Positions 2,638-10,393 of a DNA stretch of 64,000 nt are shown one piece after another. Origin of the DNA: Sphingomonas corticis. GTDB taxonomy: Bacteria > Pseudomonadota > Alphaproteobacteria > Sphingomonadales > Sphingomonadaceae. The notes under the pieces were generated by a model. It saw only the letters and a list, made by a program, of their open reading frames with translations, did not search any database and was not told the origin of the DNA. The stretch covers positions 1 through 64,000 of the forward strand of contig NZ_JAAVJH010000006.1 of assembly GCF_012035195.1 (NCBI RefSeq). The letters are read 5' to 3'. The translations under genes were made by a program, and so were the position numbers. Each line of letters starts with the position of its first letter. Position 1 is the first letter of the stretch.

Positions 2638-2967
2638 TCAGTCTTCCTCCTCCAGCCCGGCATACCAGTCGGCGTAGCGCGTGTTTCTCGCCAGGTGGCG
2701 GTTCAGGTCCTCCCCGCCCGCCCACCACACCGGCCCGCGCTCGCCCAGCGCCACCTTCGCCGCATCCACCGCGGCGCGCGCGTCGGCGAGCGCGGTCTCG
2801 TCGCCCGCCCGCCGCGCGGCACCCACGGCGCGGCGCGCCGTCATCAGCGCGCGAACGTACGCCGCGCGCTCCTTCGCCGGCAGGTGTGGGTTCGCGCGCC
2901 GCCACAGCCGCCCGCGCACGACGATGTAGCGGCCGTCGGGCGTGACCGGCGGCGCGCGCCGGCTCAC
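2638..2967 (-). CDS. Small conserved-type hypothetical protein
   Basis: A 109-aa basic protein whose GTG start overlaps the TGA stop of the TonB-dependent receptor gene (GTGA, 4 nt), so it is translationally coupled to it. It begins with a short R-Y-I-V-V-R-G-R-L-W-R segment and has an Ala/Arg-rich helical middle with W and D residues at the end. I see no signal peptide or membrane segment. The opening P-D-G-R-Y-I-V-V-R-G-R-L-W-R-x-x-N-P pattern looks like a conserved small protein of unknown function found in alphaproteobacteria, but I cannot name it. Confidence 0.6.
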   Translation of the reverse strand: MSRRAPPVTPDGRYIVVRGRLWRRANPHLPAKERAAYVRALMTARRAVGAARRAGDETALADARAAVDAAKVALGERGPVWWAGGEDLNRHLARNTRYADWYAGLEEED

Positions 2968-5792
2968 CGCCGCAGCGTGAAGGACGCGCCGAAGCGGCGG
3001 CCGAGGACGTCGTAGGATTGCGGGAAGGTGTTCGCGTCCGCCGCATTGCCGAAGGCCAGCGGCGGCTGGCGGTCGAACAGATTGTCGACGCCGACGATGA
3101 ACGTCGCCTGCTCGCCGACGTCGAACGACAGCGCCAGGTCAAAGTAATGCTGCGCGCCGATCCGCTCCACGGTGTAGACGGTGGCGGGCGTGTCGTCGGT
3201 CACCGGCCCTTCCATCCGCCACGTGCCGCGCAGCGTCACGCCCCCGCTAATGCCGCTGCCGCCGAGGCTGAGGTCGGTACGGTGGCGGTATTTGGGCAAA
3301 GCGCGCCGTACTTCCAGCCCGCACGTCGCGCCGAACCGGCCGGCGCATTCGATGACGGGGGCGGTGGCGCCGTTCTGCTGTCGCTGGCTCAGCACCACCG
3401 AGCCGGCGTAGCTCAGCCCCGCGCGGACCGCGCCCACGTCGACGCCGTAATCGCCGACGATGTCGATCCCGCGCGACTGCAGCCGGGCGACGTTGATGTC
3501 GGAGCTGTCGACGGAGGCGAGCTGGCCGTTGGGCTGGCGCCGTACCTGCTGGCAGAACAGGTTGTTGATGTCGCGCACGATCACGAAGCAGGTGTCGAGT
3601 GTCGGCTGCGGCAGCACCGCGCCCACCGCATTGTCGATCGTGATGTCGTAGTAATCGGCGCTGAGCGTCAGGCCCGGCAGGAACGTGGGCGTCAACACCG
3701 CGCCCGCGGTCCAGGTCTTGCCCGTTTCCGGCTGGATCGTCGCTCGCCCGCCGAAGATGAACAGCGCGGCGGACAGGTCCTGCACGAAGCCGCCCGCGGG
3801 CGCGCCGCTCGCCACGCACGTCTCTACCGACGCGCCGGAGGCGGCCGGGTTGGCGCACGGATCGACCGCACGGCCGACCAGGCTGATGCTGCTGGTGGCG
3901 CCGAACAGCTCGCCGATGTTCGGCGCGCGCACGACCCGCTGGTAGCTGCCGCGGAAGCGCACGTCGCGCAAGGGCGCCCAGTCGCCGCCCAGTTTCCACG
4001 CGTCGACCCCGCCGCTGGTCGAATAATCGGAGTAGCGGTACGCGCCCTCCACGTTCAGCGCGTGGAAGAACGGGCGGTCGGCGAGCAGCGGCACGCGCAC
4101 CTCGCCGAACACGTCCTTCACGTCGTAGCCGCCCGCGAAGTTGACGCGCGTGCCCTGGTTGAACGTCTGCCCTGCCTGCGCGACCTGGCCGTAGGTGTTG
4201 CGCCCGCGCTCGTCGCGATATTCCGCGCCGACCAGCAGCGCGACCGGCCCGCCGGGCAGCGTCAGGAAGCTGCCGGTGTCGGTGGCAAGCGTCAGCCCCG
4301 CCACCCACTGCTCGCGCCGCCGCCCCTGATCGACCACCTCGCCGATGAAGTCCACCGCGCCCGCGGAGATCGCGCCGGGGCCGAAGATGTTGGCGGGGAC
4401 GCAGCCGTTCGACGCGTCGGCGCACACCGCCGCGCCGCCCGCACCGACGGTGGCGTTGCCGGCCTGCTGGAAGCGCGCGAGCACGCCCTCGCCGGTGATC
4501 GGGCTGCGCTCGTCGCTGATGCCGTACTGCGCATAGGCGTCCCAGCGCACGCCAGCGGCGGTGCCGCGCAGGCCCAGCTGCCCCTGCGCGGTCTCGCGCG
4601 TGGTCTCCGTCACGCGGTCGCCCAGCTCGCCCAGCGAGCGCGTGACTGTCAGCAGCACCGCGTCGGTTCCGCCGAGCGCGCCCGCGTTGGTGCGGTTGAA
4701 CGAGGGGGCGAGGATCGCGCTCAATTGTGGCGTCAGGTACGGATTGTCGCGCCGCACCAGCACGTTGGTGGCCACATTGGCGGGCGGCAGCACGTCGCGC
4801 ACCTTCGTGCGGCTGTACATGGCGCGGCCGTACAGCTCGACCGCGTCGGCCAGGTCGTAATTGCCGAACAGGCTGGCGTTGAGGCGCTGCTGCGACAGCA
4901 GCAGGCTCTCGCGCCCGCTCAGCACGCTACTGGTGGCGAGCGGCGCCAGCGCGCCCGTGTCGGTGAAGCCGAAGGTATTGCCCGCCGCCGCGCCGCCAAC
5001 GCCGGTGAGGTTGAATACCGCGGCGCTGTCGCTGCGACGGAAGAAGCCGCCCAGCGGGCGCGCGGTGGTGACGGCGGTGTCGGTCCGCTCCGGCGCGGCG
5101 AAGCTGCGGTCGGCCTTGACCAGCGGGTCGCGTTCCGACCAGCCGAGGAAGCCGCTGACATTGCCCCGATCGCCCAGGTTCTTGCCGAAGGTCAGGTTCG
5201 CGCCGCGCGTCACGCCCTCGCCGCGCTCGGTGAAGTTGGAGACGACGCTCGCCTCCACGCCCTCGAAATCCTTCCGCGTGATGAAGTTGACGACGCCCGC
5301 CACCGCGTCCGAGCCGTAGACCGCAGCGGCGCCGCCGGTCAGCACGTCGACCCGGCTCACCAGCGGGGCAGGGATGGAATTGAGGTCGACCGAGTTGCGG
5401 AAGCCGAACGGCGCGCCGCGCGTGCCGTCGATCAGCACCAGGGTGCGGTTCTGCCCCAGCCCGCGCAGGTCCGCGGTCGCCGCGCCGCGCGAATCCGCGC
5501 CGTTGGACACGCCGCCGAAGCTGCCGGTGAATTGCGGCAGGCGGTTCAGCACGCTCTCGATATTGAGCGCGCGGTCGAGCGCGATGGCTTCCTGATCGAC
5601 CGAGGCGACTGGGCTGATCGCGGTGAGCCCCGGGGCCTGGATGCGCGATCCGGTGACGGTGATGTCCGCCTCCCCGCCCTCCGCCTCGACGGGCGCCACC
5701 GCTCCGCCGGGCGCCACCTGCGCCATCGCGGGCAGCGCCGCCGAAGAGAGGAGGATCGTCACCGCGAGGCGGAATGGGGAAACGGCACGCAT
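2964..5792 (-). CDS. TonB-dependent outer membrane receptor
   Basis: A 942-aa outer membrane receptor. A signal peptide (hydrophobic core L-A-V-T-I-L-L-S-S-A-A-L-P, cleavage near A-M-A-Q) is followed by a TonB-box-like D-I-T-V-T-G-S-R and a plug domain containing V-L-I-D-G-T-R and V-D-V-L-T-G-G-A-A-A-V-Y-G-S-D-A-V-A-G-V, the signature of catecholate/oligomer-type receptors. A long beta-rich barrel ends in the aromatic-containing strand F-G-A-S-F-T-L. The ATG at 5792 is preferred to the in-frame TTG at 5801 because a strong AGGAGGT lies 9 nt upstream of the ATG. Ligand unknown; no dedicated periplasmic or ABC partner is adjacent. Confidence 0.92.
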   Translation of the reverse strand: MRAVSPFRLAVTILLSSAALPAMAQVAPGGAVAPVEAEGGEADITVTGSRIQAPGLTAISPVASVDQEAIALDRALNIESVLNRLPQFTGSFGGVSNGADSRGAATADLRGLGQNRTLVLIDGTRGAPFGFRNSVDLNSIPAPLVSRVDVLTGGAAAVYGSDAVAGVVNFITRKDFEGVEASVVSNFTERGEGVTRGANLTFGKNLGDRGNVSGFLGWSERDPLVKADRSFAAPERTDTAVTTARPLGGFFRRSDSAAVFNLTGVGGAAAGNTFGFTDTGALAPLATSSVLSGRESLLLSQQRLNASLFGNYDLADAVELYGRAMYSRTKVRDVLPPANVATNVLVRRDNPYLTPQLSAILAPSFNRTNAGALGGTDAVLLTVTRSLGELGDRVTETTRETAQGQLGLRGTAAGVRWDAYAQYGISDERSPITGEGVLARFQQAGNATVGAGGAAVCADASNGCVPANIFGPGAISAGAVDFIGEVVDQGRRREQWVAGLTLATDTGSFLTLPGGPVALLVGAEYRDERGRNTYGQVAQAGQTFNQGTRVNFAGGYDVKDVFGEVRVPLLADRPFFHALNVEGAYRYSDYSTSGGVDAWKLGGDWAPLRDVRFRGSYQRVVRAPNIGELFGATSSISLVGRAVDPCANPAASGASVETCVASGAPAGGFVQDLSAALFIFGGRATIQPETGKTWTAGAVLTPTFLPGLTLSADYYDITIDNAVGAVLPQPTLDTCFVIVRDINNLFCQQVRRQPNGQLASVDSSDINVARLQSRGIDIVGDYGVDVGAVRAGLSYAGSVVLSQRQQNGATAPVIECAGRFGATCGLEVRRALPKYRHRTDLSLGGSGISGGVTLRGTWRMEGPVTDDTPATVYTVERIGAQHYFDLALSFDVGEQATFIVGVDNLFDRQPPLAFGNAADANTFPQSYDVLGRRFGASFTLRR

Positions 5793-5800
5793 GACGGACA

Positions 5801-5807
5801 ACCTCCT
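5801..5807 (-). promoter_or_regulatory. Ribosome binding site deciding the receptor start
   Basis: On the minus strand AGGAGGT sits 8-9 nt before the ATG at 5792. A TTG in the same frame at 5801 would overlap this site and is therefore unlikely to be the start. Confidence 0.7.
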
Positions 5808-5930: not shown

Positions 5931-6296
5931 TCACTTCGCCGTGAAGCGGATCGTACCCGTGTTGGGCTTCCCGTCGGCGCCGACGGCCCGCCATCTCAGG
6001 TCGTAGCTGCCCGCGGGCAGCGCGCGGGGGAGGGGGGCGGTCAGCGACCGGCCGTCCCTGTCCACCGCCGCCGCGAAGCCACGGATCGGCATCGGCGGAT
6101 GGTCCTTCATTCCCGGCATGCCGGTCATGACGAGCTCCACGGTGCTGGCCGGCGCGATCGGCTCGGAGAAGGTGAGCGACAGCCGCGTCACCTTCGCCAC
6201 GCTCGCGCCGTTCGCGGGTGCTGCGGCGACGAGCGCCGGCTCCGCCGCGGCGGGGGTGGCGAGCAGGATCAGGGGGAGGAACAGGGCAGGGCGCAT
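5931..6296 (-). CDS. copC: CopC-like periplasmic copper-binding protein
   Basis: A 121-aa CopC/YcnJ-type beta-sandwich protein with a signal peptide ending near T-P-A-A-A. The Met-rich loop M-T-G-M-P-G-M-K-D-H-P-P-M-P (residues 57-70) resembles the Cu(I) site of CopC. The Cu(II) site looks lost: the family's N-terminal His of the mature protein is replaced (mature N-terminus begins E-P-A-L-V) and the later D-G-H-P motif reads D-G-K-P. An upstream in-frame ATG at 6308 is an alternative start; neither has a strong ribosome site. The gene is divergent from the cnr-cop operon. A small 6-bp-stem inverted repeat (5911-5925) follows its stop codon and may help end the transcript. Confidence 0.85.
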   Translation of the reverse strand: MRPALFLPLILLATPAAAEPALVAAAPANGASVAKVTRLSLTFSEPIAPASTVELVMTGMPGMKDHPPMPIRGFAAAVDRDGRSLTAPLPRALPAGSYDLRWRAVGADGKPNTGTIRFTAK

Positions 6297-6420
6297 GGGA
6301 AGATCCATCGATGGAAGTGACGGCAACGATACGCGCGCGCTTGCCCCACCCCTCGTGGCGCAGGCATGAACGAGGGATCGGCGCGGCGGCTGCGTATCAG
6401 CCGGTGGAAGGACGGCAGCG

Positions 6421-6675
6421 ATGGACGATCTCGACGGGCTGTTACACCGGATGCGCGGCGAACCTGTCGACGCGCGCCTCGCCGCGCTGGGCGACGCGGT
6501 GATGGCGGGGCTGGAGGCGCGTCGCGAGCGCGCGGCGGCGCGGCGCGCGGTGGCGCTCGCCGCGGCGCTGGCGCTGGGCGTTGGCGTGGTGGGCGGCACG
6601 CTGCCCGCCGCGCCTGCGCGGGCGGTGGCGCTCGGACTGTCGGACCTGGCGCCGTCGCGACTGCTGGCGGAGTGA
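6421..6675 (+). CDS. CnrY-like single-span membrane anti-sigma factor (probable)
   Basis: An 84-aa protein with a charged N-terminal cytoplasmic stretch (about 40 residues), one transmembrane segment (Ala/Leu/Val-rich, about residues 43-63) and a short periplasmic tail. Sequence similarity to known anti-sigma factors is too weak to see by eye; the call rests on size, topology and position. It is followed, with overlapping stop and start codons, by a CnrX-type sensor and then an ECF sigma factor, the same Y-X-H order as the cnr operon of Cupriavidus metallidurans, where CnrY is a 95-aa membrane protein that sequesters sigma CnrH. Likely role: hold the sigma factor at the membrane until metal is sensed. 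Confidence 0.6.
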   Translation: MDDLDGLLHRMRGEPVDARLAALGDAVMAGLEARRERAAARRAVALAAALALGVGVVGGTLPAAPARAVALGLSDLAPSRLLAE

Positions 6676-7106
6676 TGCGCCGCTACGCGCTGGTGGCGCT
6701 GGTCGCCTTCCTCGCCGCGCTGGCGGGGGTGGCGGCGGCGCGGCTCGCCACCGCACCGCGCGCCGCGGGCGAGAGCGAACTGCACGCGCTGCTCCACAAC
6801 GGGCTGCGGCTCGATGCCGCGCAACAGCGGCGCGTGGCGGCGCTGGAACGCGACTTCGCGCAGCGCCGCGCCGCGCTGGACGAGGCGATGCGGGCGCAGA
6901 ACCGCGTCCTGGCGCGCGCCATCGCGGCGGAGCACGGCTACGGTCCGCGGGTCGCCGCCGCGGTCGATCGCTCGCACCAGGTGATGGGCGAGGTGCAGAA
7001 GGAGACGCTGAAGCACGTCTTCGCCATGCGCGGCGTGCTGCGCGCCGATCAGGCCGCGCGCTACGACGCCGCGGTGGTGCGGACGCTGACCGCGCCGTCG
7101 CGGTGA
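6675..7106 (+). CDS. CnrX-like periplasmic heavy-metal sensor
   Basis: A 143-aa membrane-anchored protein of the CnrX/Spy/CpxP-like family: one N-terminal transmembrane segment (residues 4-22), then a helical periplasmic domain. H37, H41, E58, H114 and M118 have exactly the spacing of the CnrX metal ligands H42, H46, E63, H119 and M123 (4, 17, 56 and 4 residues apart), so a functional metal site is likely. The start ATG overlaps the stop of the upstream anti-sigma gene (ATGA) and its own stop overlaps the sigma-factor start (GTGA). Role: sense a divalent metal, or copper, in the periplasm and release the sigma factor. Confidence 0.82.
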   Translation: MRRYALVALVAFLAALAGVAAARLATAPRAAGESELHALLHNGLRLDAAQQRRVAALERDFAQRRAALDEAMRAQNRVLARAIAAEHGYGPRVAAAVDRSHQVMGEVQKETLKHVFAMRGVLRADQAARYDAAVVRTLTAPSR

Positions 7107-7672
7107 CGGACCCGAGCGACGCGGACCTCGCCGCGCGAGCGATCGGCGGCGATCAGACGGCGTATGCCGCGCTGATGACGCGCCACCGCGACGCCGTGTA
7201 CCGGATGGCGCGCGGCGCCACTGGCGACGCCGACGCGGCGCTGGACGTCACGCAGGAGGCGTTCGTCGCCGCCTTCGCCGCGCTGTCCCGCTACGATCCG
7301 GCGCGGCCGTTCCGTCACTGGCTGGCGCGGATCGCGCTCAACAAGGCGCGCGACCACGCCCGCCGCCGCGCCGTGCGTCGCTTCTTCGCGCGCGCCCGCC
7401 CGCTGGACGAGGCGCTGGACGCCGCCGATCCCGCCCCCACGCCCGAGGAAGCCGCGGACGATCGCCGGCGGCTCGCCCGCGCGCGCGCCGCCATCGCCGC
7501 GCTGCCCGCCGCGCTGCGCGAGGTCCTGCTGCTGCGCGGCGTGGAGCAGATGTCGCAGGCGGAGACCGCCGCTGTCCTCGGCATCGGCGAGAAGGCGGTG
7601 GAGACGCGGCTGTACCGCGCCCGCCGGCGGCTGGCCGAGACGATGAGGGAAAGCGCGCCGCCGCGCGTATAG
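7103..7672 (+). CDS. ECF-type RNA polymerase sigma factor (CnrH-like)
   Basis: A 189-aa sigma-70 factor with only regions 2 and 4. Region 2 shows D-V-T-Q-E-A-F-V-A-A-F and the W-L-x-R-I-A-L-N-K-A-R-D core-binding segment; region 4 has L-R-E-V-L-L-L-R-G-V-E-Q-M-S and the helix-turn-helix G-I-G-E-K-A-V-E-T-R-L-Y-R-A-R. The GTG start at 7103 overlaps the sensor stop; an upstream in-frame extension would run across the sensor gene and is rejected. Its gene ends 7 bp before copA, so it presumably drives its own operon including copAB. Confidence 0.9.
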   Translation: MTDPSDADLAARAIGGDQTAYAALMTRHRDAVYRMARGATGDADAALDVTQEAFVAAFAALSRYDPARPFRHWLARIALNKARDHARRRAVRRFFARARPLDEALDAADPAPTPEEAADDRRRLARARAAIAALPAALREVLLLRGVEQMSQAETAAVLGIGEKAVETRLYRARRRLAETMRESAPPRV

Positions 7673-7679
7673 ACGAGTC

Positions 7680-9443
7680 ATGCCTCCCCTTGCTTCGACG
7701 GCGATCGACCGCCGCACCCTGATCCGCGGCGCCGGTGCGCTGGCGCTCGCGCCGGCGCTGCCCGCCTGGGCGCGGAGCGGGCACGCCGGCCTCGCCACGG
7801 CGCCCGGCACGCTATCGGGCGATACGATCGCGCTGACCGTGGGCGAGCGCCATTTCCGCACCGGCGGCCGGTCCGCGCACGCGGTCGCCGTCAACGGCAC
7901 GCTGCCCGCGCCGCTGATCCGGCTTCGCGAGGGGCAGCACGTCCGCCTGTCCGTCACCAACACGCTGAAGGAGGACACGTCGATCCACTGGCACGGGCTG
8001 CTCGTGCCCTTCGCGATGGACGGCGTGCCCGGCATCAGCTTCCCCGGCATCCGCCCCGGCGAGACCTTCGTCTACGACTTTCCGGTGCGCCAGTCGGGCA
8101 CCTATTGGTATCACAGCCACTCGGGCATGCAGGAGGCGATGGGCCTCTACGGCGCGATCGTGATCGACCCCGCCGCACCCGATCCGGTCGCCAGCGAGCG
8201 CGAGTACGTGCTGGTCCTGTCCGACTGGAGTCCGATGCACCCGCACGCGCAGCTGCGCCGGCTGAAGCAGCAGGGCGGGTATTTCAACATGCAGCGCCAG
8301 ACGCTGGCGGGGCTGATCGCCGGGCGCGACCAGCCGCTCGAGGAGCGGCTGCACTGGGGCGCGATGCGGATGGATCCGACCGACGTCTCCGACGTGACGG
8401 GCAGCACGTACCACTACCTCGTCAACGGCCACGGGACGCAGGAGAACTGGACCGGGCTGTTCACCGCGGGGGAGCGCGTGCGGCTGCGCCTCGTCAACGC
8501 CTCGGCGATGACCAACTTCAACGTCCGCCTGCCCGGCCTGGCGATGACGGTCGTGCAGGCCGACGGGCAGGCCGTGCAACCGGTGGAGACCGACGAGCTG
8601 CAGATCGGCATCGCCGAGACCTACGACGTGATCGTCCGCCCGGTCGAGTCGCGTGCGCACGCGATCGTCGCGGAGGCGATCGACCGTTCCGGCCTGGTGC
8701 GGGCCACGCTGGCGCCGCGCATCGGCATGGCCGGCGCCATCCCGCCGCGCCGCCCGCGCCCCGTCCTGACGATGAAGGACATGGGGATGGACATGAGCGG
8801 CATGGGGGAGGGCGGCATGGGAGATGCCGTCATCGACCTCAGCCAGCCCGCCGGCGATCCCCACGCCGGCCACTCCATGAAGATGCGCGACCCCGCGAAT
8901 GCGCCCGGCGTGCGGATGGGACCGGGGGTGGCGACGATCTCGCCGATGCCGGTCGATCGCATCGCCGACCGCCCCACCGGGCTGGAGGCGGAGGAGCATC
9001 GCGTCCTCACCTACGCGCAGCTGAAGTCGGCGACGCGCAATCCCGACACCCGCGCGCCTTCGCGCACGCTCGACATCCACCTGACGGCGAACATGGAGCG
9101 CTACATGTGGTCGTTCGACGGCGTGAAGCTGTCGGAGGGCGCCGAGCCGATCGCCTTCCGCCACGGCGAGCGGGTTCGCGTGACCCTGGTGAACGACACG
9201 ATGATGCCGCACCCGATCCACCTCCACGGCCATTTCTTCGAACTGGTGAACGGCGCGGGCGACCACGCGCCGCGCAAGCACACGGTGAACGTGCTGCCCG
9301 GCGGCAAGGCCAGCTTCGACCTGACCGCCGACGCGCTCGGCGACTGGGCGTTCCACTGCCATATGCTGATGCACATGCATTCGGGCATGATGCGCGTGGT
9401 GACGGTGCGGCACGAGGGCGGCGGGGTGGAGGACGCGGCGTGA
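7680..9443 (+). CDS. copA: Copper resistance multicopper oxidase CopA
   Basis: A 587-aa periplasmic multicopper oxidase that oxidises Cu(I) and binds excess copper. A twin-arginine signal peptide is present (R-R-T-L-I-R-G at 11-17). Copper-site motifs are H-W-H-G (103-106), Y-H-S-H-S-G (144-149), H-P-I-H-L-H-G-H-F-F (511-520) and H-C-H-M-L-M-H (559-565), covering type 1, 2 and 3 centres. A Met-rich segment, M-K-D-M-G-M-D-M-S-G-M, and a second H/M-rich stretch in the middle fit CopA of copper resistance operons rather than laccases. copB overlaps its stop codon. Confidence 0.95.
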   Translation: MPPLASTAIDRRTLIRGAGALALAPALPAWARSGHAGLATAPGTLSGDTIALTVGERHFRTGGRSAHAVAVNGTLPAPLIRLREGQHVRLSVTNTLKEDTSIHWHGLLVPFAMDGVPGISFPGIRPGETFVYDFPVRQSGTYWYHSHSGMQEAMGLYGAIVIDPAAPDPVASEREYVLVLSDWSPMHPHAQLRRLKQQGGYFNMQRQTLAGLIAGRDQPLEERLHWGAMRMDPTDVSDVTGSTYHYLVNGHGTQENWTGLFTAGERVRLRLVNASAMTNFNVRLPGLAMTVVQADGQAVQPVETDELQIGIAETYDVIVRPVESRAHAIVAEAIDRSGLVRATLAPRIGMAGAIPPRRPRPVLTMKDMGMDMSGMGEGGMGDAVIDLSQPAGDPHAGHSMKMRDPANAPGVRMGPGVATISPMPVDRIADRPTGLEAEEHRVLTYAQLKSATRNPDTRAPSRTLDIHLTANMERYMWSFDGVKLSEGAEPIAFRHGERVRVTLVNDTMMPHPIHLHGHFFELVNGAGDHAPRKHTVNVLPGGKASFDLTADALGDWAFHCHMLMHMHSGMMRVVTVRHEGGGVEDAA

Positions 9444-10249
9444 TCCTGCTGCTCCTCGCCGCCGCCGCGCAGCACCATGCCGGCCACGCCCCGGCTTCCC
9501 CGGCACCCGCCACGGAGCGCGCCGGCCCGCCTGCGCCCGCGGACCACGCCGCCGACGCGGTCTACGATCCGTCGGCGATGGCGCGCGCCCGCGCCGCGAT
9601 GACGCGCGAGCACGGCGGCGGCACCTTCTCGCAGGTGCTGGTCGACCGGCTCGAGTATCGCGCCGTACGCGGGCGCGACGGCTATGCCTGGGAGGCGGAC
9701 GGCTGGATCGGCGGCGACATCCATCGTTTCGCGCTGGCGACGGAGGGCGAGGGCGAGTTCGGCCACGCACCCGACGAAGCGGAGGTGCAGGCGCTCTACC
9801 GCCGCGCGATCGGCCCGTGGTTCAACGCGGAGGCGGGCGTGCGGCAGGATCTGGGGCGCGGCGGGCGGCGGACGCATGCGGTGATCGGCATCGACGGCCT
9901 CGCGCCCTATTGGTTTGACGTCAGCGCGCAGGCGTTCCTCTCCACCCGCGGCGAGCTGCAGACCCGGCTGGAGGCGAGCTACGACCAGCGCATCACGCAG
10001 CGGCTGATCCTGCAACCCGCCGCGGAGGTGACGCTGGCGGCGCAGGACGTGCCCGAGCTGGCGGTCGGCGCCGGCGTGTCGGAGGCGGAGCTGGGCCTGC
10101 GACTGCGCTACGAGATCCGCCGCGAGTTCGCGCCCTATGTGGGCGTGCATCGCGAACGCAAGTTCGGTGCCGCGGCGCGGTTCGCGCGGGCGGAAGGGGA
10201 AAGGGCGTCGGCGACGAACTGGGTCGCGGGGGTGCGGTTCTGGTTCTGA
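9440..10249 (+). CDS. copB: Copper resistance outer membrane protein CopB
   Basis: A 269-aa CopB-family protein. The GTG start overlaps the copA stop (GTGA). A short signal peptide (L-L-L-L-A-A-A-A) is followed by a brief His-containing segment Q-H-H-A-G-H and a Pro/Ala linker, much shorter than the Met/His-rich N-terminus of plasmid-borne CopB. The remainder is the conserved beta-barrel domain (W-E-A-D-G-W-I-G-G-D, Y-R-R-A-I-G-P-W-F-N, L-A-P-Y-W-F-D, F-A-P-Y-V-G-V) ending in a terminal F, typical of outer membrane proteins. It probably binds or exports copper at the outer membrane together with CopA. Confidence 0.93.
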   Translation: MILLLLAAAAQHHAGHAPASPAPATERAGPPAPADHAADAVYDPSAMARARAAMTREHGGGTFSQVLVDRLEYRAVRGRDGYAWEADGWIGGDIHRFALATEGEGEFGHAPDEAEVQALYRRAIGPWFNAEAGVRQDLGRGGRRTHAVIGIDGLAPYWFDVSAQAFLSTRGELQTRLEASYDQRITQRLILQPAAEVTLAAQDVPELAVGAGVSEAELGLRLRYEIRREFAPYVGVHRERKFGAAARFARAEGERASATNWVAGVRFWF

Positions 10250-10268: not shown

Positions 10269-10393
10269 CCGTTCGTGCTGAGCGAAGTCGCAGCACAGCC
10301 ACGGCGCGCATCGCCCTCGACTTCGGCACGACGTGCCGAAGCCTGTCCTGAGCGCCTGCCTTGGCAGGCAGTCGAAGGGCTCAGGCCGAACGG
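10269..10393. repeat. Interspersed palindromic repeat, long variant
   Basis: Starts with CCGTTCGTGCTGAGCGAAG and ends with an inverted match GGGCTCAGGCCGAACGG. The same ends bound the 70-bp element at 57094-57163. A middle insertion with its own inverted repeats (TTCGGCACGACGTGCCGAA and GCCTGCCTTGGCAGGC) makes this copy longer. It separates the ends of copB and argJ, which converge here, and could act as a transcript-end hairpin. Confidence 0.7.

Follow-up and report, generated by a model that had tools for sequence, protein, structure and literature searches.

A probable CnrYXH-type sigma switch wired to copper-resistance genes in Sphingomonas corticis

The window analyzed here is a stretch of 64,000 nucleotides from a contig of Sphingomonas corticis (NZ_JAAVJH010000006.1). 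Between its positions 6421 and 10249, genes for a small membrane protein (Y), a periplasmic sensor (X) and an extracytoplasmic function (ECF) sigma factor (H) follow one another in the same direction and run straight into the copper-resistance genes copA and copB. The initial annotation of this DNA had described the same order and overlaps, and the frames and junctions are as claimed: Y and X overlap by 1 nt and X and H by 4 nt, a gap of 7 bp separates H from copA, and copA and copB overlap by 4 nt. The divergent copC gene belongs to the unit as well, though it lies outside the region that the annotation covered. The genes are:

6421..6675, plus strand: Y, small membrane protein of 84 aa, probable anti-sigma factor (position before X and H, size, one hydrophobic stretch)
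6675..7106, plus strand: X, CnrX-type periplasmic metal sensor of 143 aa (Pfam, phmmer, alignment, AlphaFold2 superposition)
7103..7672, plus strand: H, CnrH-type ECF sigma factor of 189 aa, GTG start (phmmer, BLAST identity)
7680..9443, plus strand: copA, periplasmic multicopper oxidase of the CopA/PcoA type, 587 aa (TIGR01480)
9440..10249, plus strand: copB, outer-membrane copper resistance protein B, 269 aa, GTG start (PF05275)
5931..6296, minus strand: copC, divergent, periplasmic copper-binding protein (PF04234, E 2.6e-17)

The product of copA scores 791.3 bits with TIGR01480 (cut-off 478.95), and that of copB matches PF05275 with an E value of 1.4e-86. An export ATPase is ruled out for copA, which is the multicopper oxidase of TIGR01480. 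The annotation linked the cassette to copper export; the word export is loose because CopA is a periplasmic multicopper oxidase and not an exporter. For copC, the start was set at the ATG preceding a signal-peptide-like stretch, and a second ATG is present at 6308.

The arrangement is not a one-off but is common, both in Sphingomonadales and in some other Alphaproteobacteria. Relatives of X occur in 127 of 201 genomes of the genus, 80 of 199 genomes of the family (57 of 96 genera), 60 of 149 genomes of another alphaproteobacterial family (f63), at least 5 of 385 genomes in a class-wide sample and at least 17 of 398 in a phylum-wide sample; thresholds differ among these searches, and the class and phylum counts are lower bounds because ten candidates were scored per genome. 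Among 72,556 plasmid records, 79 carry a relative of X, most of them in Sphingobium, Sphingomonas and Novosphingobium and six in Cupriavidus. In 20 fetched loci of the same genus (L033-L052), H follows X in all 20, with copA in 18 and copB in 16; the exceptions are L035, which ends at a contig end, L039, without copA, L044, with only a copA fragment, and L051, cut by a contig end. A set of 80 named loci (L079-L158), mostly from Sphingomonadales, has H in 80, copA in 76, copB in 71 and copC upstream in 70; these are the best 80 of 343 found and lean to close kin. The two sets probably overlap, so their counts are not additive.

What ties the cassette to copAB above all is a promoter-like motif shared by Y, copA and copC. 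Side-by-side reading of the gaps between copC and Y revealed one element, GAGGG-N16-CGTA, running in both directions, and the window carries it three times:

6372..6397, plus strand: motif GAGGG-N16-CGTAT before Y (strict form in the same place in 19/21 loci; absent in L044 and L048)
6329..6354, minus strand: motif GAGGG-N16-CGTAT towards copC (strict form in 17/21 loci; absent in L035, L037, L039 and L040)
7645..7670, plus strand: motif GAGGG-N16-CGTAT within the final part of H, 35 bp upstream of copA (before copA in 18/18 other loci that have copA)

These three matches in 64 kb compare with 0.27 expected, and none of 100 shuffles reached three; the motif definition drew on two of the copies, and the copA copy is independent of it. 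The latter lies 25-85 bp upstream of copA in all 18 fetched loci that have this gene. Where H and copA are 0.5-1.4 kb apart (L041, L045, L046 and L051), the motif still stands 42-57 bp before copA. On both strands of the 80 named loci, a spacer of 16 gave 245 matches and each of thirteen other spacers between 10 and 23 gave 0-9; the motif precedes Y in 74 of the 80, copA in 71 of the 76 and faces copC in 67 of the 80. The consensus is about TGAGGG(A/G)-N15-GCGTAT.

The same pair of boxes is present in the cnr promoters of Cupriavidus plasmid pMOL28, where the cnrC promoter reads CGAGGGG-N16-CCGTATA and that of cnrY is a close variant (AAGGGG). For cnrC and cnrY, primer extension placed the starts 25 and 24 bp upstream, according to the account in PMC9045368, which ascribes the nickel induction to CnrH. 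Counted from GAGGG to CGTA, the spacer is 16 in the present loci and 17 in the Cupriavidus cnr promoters; this difference is not strict, since a spacer of 17 also occurs in some copA-linked loci outside Sphingomonadales (L187, L189, L197 and L202). A search of the cnr-linked loci L191 and L241 with a looser cnr-like motif found none. By analogy with pMOL28, H very probably reads a CnrH-type promoter.

Homology of H points the same way. CnrH is its nearest relative among solved chains (4cxf, phmmer E 1e-32) and shares 44% identity with it in the pMOL28 form, so that by sequence comparison H is a CnrH homologue. CnrH is a member of ECF group 20. Cys is absent from H, as is any Cys-rich domain at the C-terminus, and the protein stops a few residues past region 4.

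X matches Pfam family PF13801 (Metal_resist, E 2e-18) and, in phmmer, the CnrX chains (best 3zg1, E 3.4e-17), with solved NccX chains matched too; across the BLAST alignment it is 38% identical to CnrX of pMOL28. Its AlphaFold2 model has a mean pLDDT (predicted local distance difference test) of 86.8. Residues 34-140 of this model superpose on residues 39-145 of CnrX 2y3d over 107 aligned positions, without gaps and at an offset of 5 (Z 13.0, root-mean-square deviation 1.8), and Z ranges from 12.3 to 13.1 over the CnrX structures. Because helical bundles can reach such Z values, the homology of X to CnrX is carried by the sequence.

In the initial annotation, H37, H41, E58, H114 and M118 of X were said to have the spacing of the metal ligands of CnrX, which we take from it to be H42, H46, E63, H119 and M123. 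With the constant offset and the gapless superposition, the five residues of the 6675-7106 product fall on CnrX positions 42, 46, 63, 119 and 123, that is, on one site at the level of the aligned fold; all five are invariant in 21 of 21 aligned sensors. The proposed register is thereby borne out, and the BLAST-only alignment shows small compensating gaps ahead of E58. Of these ligands, Met123 is given for CnrX in PMC7689651. X is homologous to CnrX, and each of the five ligand positions is in register. It also carries an extra pair, H101-x2-M104, at positions where CnrX has Glu and Ala.

This pair separates copper-linked from nickel-linked sensors. Sorting 169 loci by the gene after H gave 130 copA-linked, 13 cnr-linked and 26 unassigned loci, the last being those whose examined stretch, often a short one, showed no copA downstream on the same strand. 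A single locus, in which relatives of copA and of cnr both occur, went into the copA-linked group, and five loci without a BLAST-level X (L235, L237-L240) were left out. The distinct sequences number 118, 4 and 25 for the copA-linked, cnr-linked and unassigned groups, and the complete H101/M104 pair occurs in 118 of 118, 0 of 4 (linked to cnrCBA) and 24 of 25 of them, respectively. Within the 118, H37 is replaced by Asp in two and M118 by Leu or Ile in three. Both kinds of sensor, copA-linked and cnr-linked, coexist in one genome (G894). In the copA-linked sensors of L086 and L096, Leu replaces the M118 ligand while H101 and M104 are kept.

As the cnr-linked sequences form one clade, the difference between copper and nickel sensors counts as a single evolutionary contrast. 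A quick tree of X and H (84 rows; outgroup L235, L236, L238 and L239, with L240 dropped because no proper H was found and L237 unused) places the four cnr-linked rows as a clade on a long branch (1.14) inside the copA-linked rows, with support 97; an approximately unbiased test did not reject the cnr-linked rows lying outside the copA-linked ones (p 0.366). We offer only tentatively the idea that this signaling family exists mainly in its copper form, which may also be the older one, and that CnrYXH of Cupriavidus is a small derived branch that lost H101/M104 and took a resistance-nodulation-division (RND) pump in place of copAB. If so, the HxxM pair would act as the switch that decides whether a sensor answers copper or nickel/cobalt. 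A distant, weakly scoring X branch in family f63 (L235-L240) has mostly lost the CnrX ligands, with Tyr at H114 and Val or an Ile-like residue at M118, and an ECF sigma frame adjoins it in four of five loci checked.

Y has a single hydrophobic stretch, in which the 19 residues from residue 43 average 2.13 in hydropathy. A profile of 21 Y proteins was run on 11 other copA-linked loci, drawn from a set of 20, and recovered the gene preceding X in 10 of them, with E values of 0.0023 or better. Applied to four cnr-linked loci, the profile did not find CnrY, which appeared only at E 9.1. Comparison of Y with CnrY by hhalign gave P 0.027 over the first 15 residues only (control against H, P 0.36), and a PDB profile search with the Y alignment returned an unrelated enzyme as best match (E 0.056). 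By analogy in position, size and topology, Y is a probable anti-sigma factor. The best conserved residues of this otherwise variable protein form a C-terminal tail, LAPSxLL (window 6646-6666), which might contact X in the periplasm.

Genome-wide, YGAGGG-N16-CGTA has 12 matches, nine of which directly precede copper genes. Six of the nine stand before copC, Y and copA of two modules, as the genome holds a second, diverged copC-Y-X-H-copA-copB module in full (L076 1505-6526; contig C1, 1.5-6.5 kb), with copD behind copC, a DUF305/DUF411/cation-efflux set after copB and three motif sites. A further site lies 36 bp before the likely ATG of a Cys-rich protein (L076 140-537) that matches DUF326 marginally and the copper-storage protein Csp1 weakly. 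Two DUF305 genes preceded by the motif have sub-cut-off CopM matches and are each followed by DUF411; at the one on contig C26, an outer-membrane efflux gene and a CusB/CusF-like gene come next on the same strand. The 80 named loci contain 33 further spacer-16 sites, and of the proteins behind 16 of these that were scanned, nine are DUF305/CopM-like, DUF411, CopC or copper P-type ATPase proteins and one is a TonB receptor. Because the motif also precedes the second module, the CopM-like/DUF411 operons and the copper-storage-like gene, the two sigma factors of the genome probably share a wider copper regulon, as predicted from these sites.

One more gene lies behind copC:

2964..5801, minus strand: TonB-dependent receptor, a possible, weakly supported member of the unit (PF00593, E 1.7e-26)

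It has no GAGGG-N16-CGTA motif of its own in the window. TonB-dependent receptor frames stand behind the motif near copper modules in L115, L137, L150 and L151, the protein scan being that of L115. On the other side of the cassette, 3' of copB, an inverted-repeat-like intergenic stretch (window 10290-10375) was noticed by eye and may be a dispersed intergenic repeat.

We consider it very likely that the cassette acts across the envelope as a sigma switch of the CnrYXH type and controls copper defense, with copper as the most likely metal sensed. The Cnr-type sensing cassette proposed in the annotation is thus supported by the homology of X and H, the register of the site, the copA linkage (18/20 and 76/80) and the shared motif. 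By analogy with CnrYXH, Y together with X would hold H at the membrane in the resting state. Periplasmic metal, most likely copper, would bind the CnrX-like site of X, with H101/M104 as a possible added copper contact, and the metal-bound X-Y complex would change shape and set H free. Free H would then direct RNA polymerase to the GAGGG-N16-CGTAT promoters, of which the Y promoter would raise Y-X-H in a feedback, that inside the end of H would fire copA-copB, and that of copC would fire copC on the opposite strand. Their products would oxidize copper and bind it, in the periplasm as well as at the outer membrane.

Several observations weigh against this reading. The 12 genome-wide motif matches compare with 8 for a reversed control, and with the final T included the bare numbers are 9 and 2; with 12 against 8, genome counts alone prove little, and the case rests on position. 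Three of the 12 sites do not precede copper genes: C26:13088 faces no clear gene, and C12:202339 and C51:87225, the latter near a CueR-like gene, fall within reading frames and have no gene start behind them. Similarly, six of the 16 scanned proteins behind extra sites match neither a copper family nor a TonB receptor, one being a histidine kinase. Y could not be tied to CnrY by sequence and is a putative CnrY-type anti-sigma factor. For Caulobacter crescentus, the account in PMC8224329 describes copper induction of pcoAB only in stalked cells and in one of two media. The genome contains nine sub-cut-off MerR-type relatives of CueR (best 127.9 against 147.4). Finally, X keeps a site which in CnrX answers Co and Ni (PMC7689651), and copA, copB and copC genes are reported to have risen on nickel in Sphingobium sp. 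ba1, for which a CopS-family system is also mentioned (PMC5557971).

The last two points favor a switch that answers nickel, cobalt or several divalent metals and has copAB and copC as targets because these metals co-occur in nature. The nickel response in Sphingobium would fit a nickel-accepting CnrX-like site, if those genes are cassette-linked. However, the genes recognized beside the motif are copper genes, the copA-linked sensors differ from the cnr-linked ones at H101 and M104, and CnrX can itself hold copper, judging by the title of entry 3epv, a copper-bound crystal form. We consider a nickel or mixed-metal switch unlikely.

Clearly less probable still is a mere neighborhood, in which Y-X-H acts on its own genes or on others, and an unrelated two-component or MerR-type regulator governs copA, copB and copC. 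The genome does hold CopS-like and CueR-like genes, all below cut-off: the best CopS match reaches 164.2 bits against 292.55, with 31 further matches also below, and the CueR model finds none over its cut-off. On the other hand, one motif precedes Y, copA and copC and stays with copA even where genes intervene between H and copA, and the copA linkage is kept in 76 of the 80 named loci; a mere neighborhood was rejected because the motif moves with copA. The annotation had set sigma control against a CopRS-type two-component system, and the lack of a CopS-type kinase at the family cut-off in the genome is in line with this, though a kinase outside the CopS model or a MerR-type regulator could contribute. 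The least credible alternative, a sigma factor that, like CorE, would detect cytoplasmic copper on its own, with X and Y accessory, draws on CorE being a copper-dependent ECF sigma factor for a multicopper oxidase (in the account of PMC3107203) and was rejected, as H lacks both Cys and the Cys-rich domain and its closest match among solved chains is CnrH.

A CnrYXH-type switch at the copper genes resembles CnrYXH of Cupriavidus metallidurans pMOL28 in the Y-X-H order with short overlaps, the CnrX fold with its five ligand positions, the CnrH homology, and one promoter before Y and another before the first effector gene, with boxes as at cnrC and, in close variant, at cnrY. It differs in that the effectors are copAB and the divergent copC, with no cnrCBA efflux genes directly after H, in a Y not recognizable as CnrY, in a sensor with H101/M104, and in the spacer (16 against 17). 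CorE of Myxococcus xanthus is likewise an ECF sigma factor over copper genes that include a multicopper oxidase (as described in PMC3107203 and PMC10141476), but the description in PMC3107203 gives it a Cys-rich domain of its own and no linked anti-sigma factor, whereas H has no Cys and is accompanied by X and Y. Operons of the copABCD type under CopRS/PcoRS share the effectors CopA, CopB and CopC but not the predicted ECF sigma control, and the present genome has no CopS over the cut-off; a scan of seven proteins encoded between 2964 and 10249 showed no histidine kinase or response regulator. SigF/NrsF of Caulobacter crescentus is a copper-induced ECF system in an alphaproteobacterium, as copper induction would be here, but its anti-sigma factor is another one, and the regulon given in PMC8224329 comprises DUF692 and DUF2282 proteins and a sulfoxide reductase instead of copABC.

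The CnrYXH switch itself is already known; the shared promoter-like motif, the predicted regulon and the HxxM contrast are described here. In the open literature searched we found no description of a CnrYXH-type system controlling copAB, and we do not claim that none has been published; work on ECF re-classification may already note copper genes near CnrH-type sigma factors. The cassette would provide a concrete and common answer to how copABC may be controlled in Alphaproteobacteria without a recognizable CopRS, namely by a sigma factor that its sensor sets free, in place of a histidine kinase. With the motif, the copper regulon of such genomes could be read directly from their sequence, and little-understood families would be tied to copper, including DUF305, DUF411, DUF326 and some TonB receptors. 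With HxxM present in copper-linked and absent from nickel-linked sensors, the metal selectivity of CnrX-type sensors would become directly testable.

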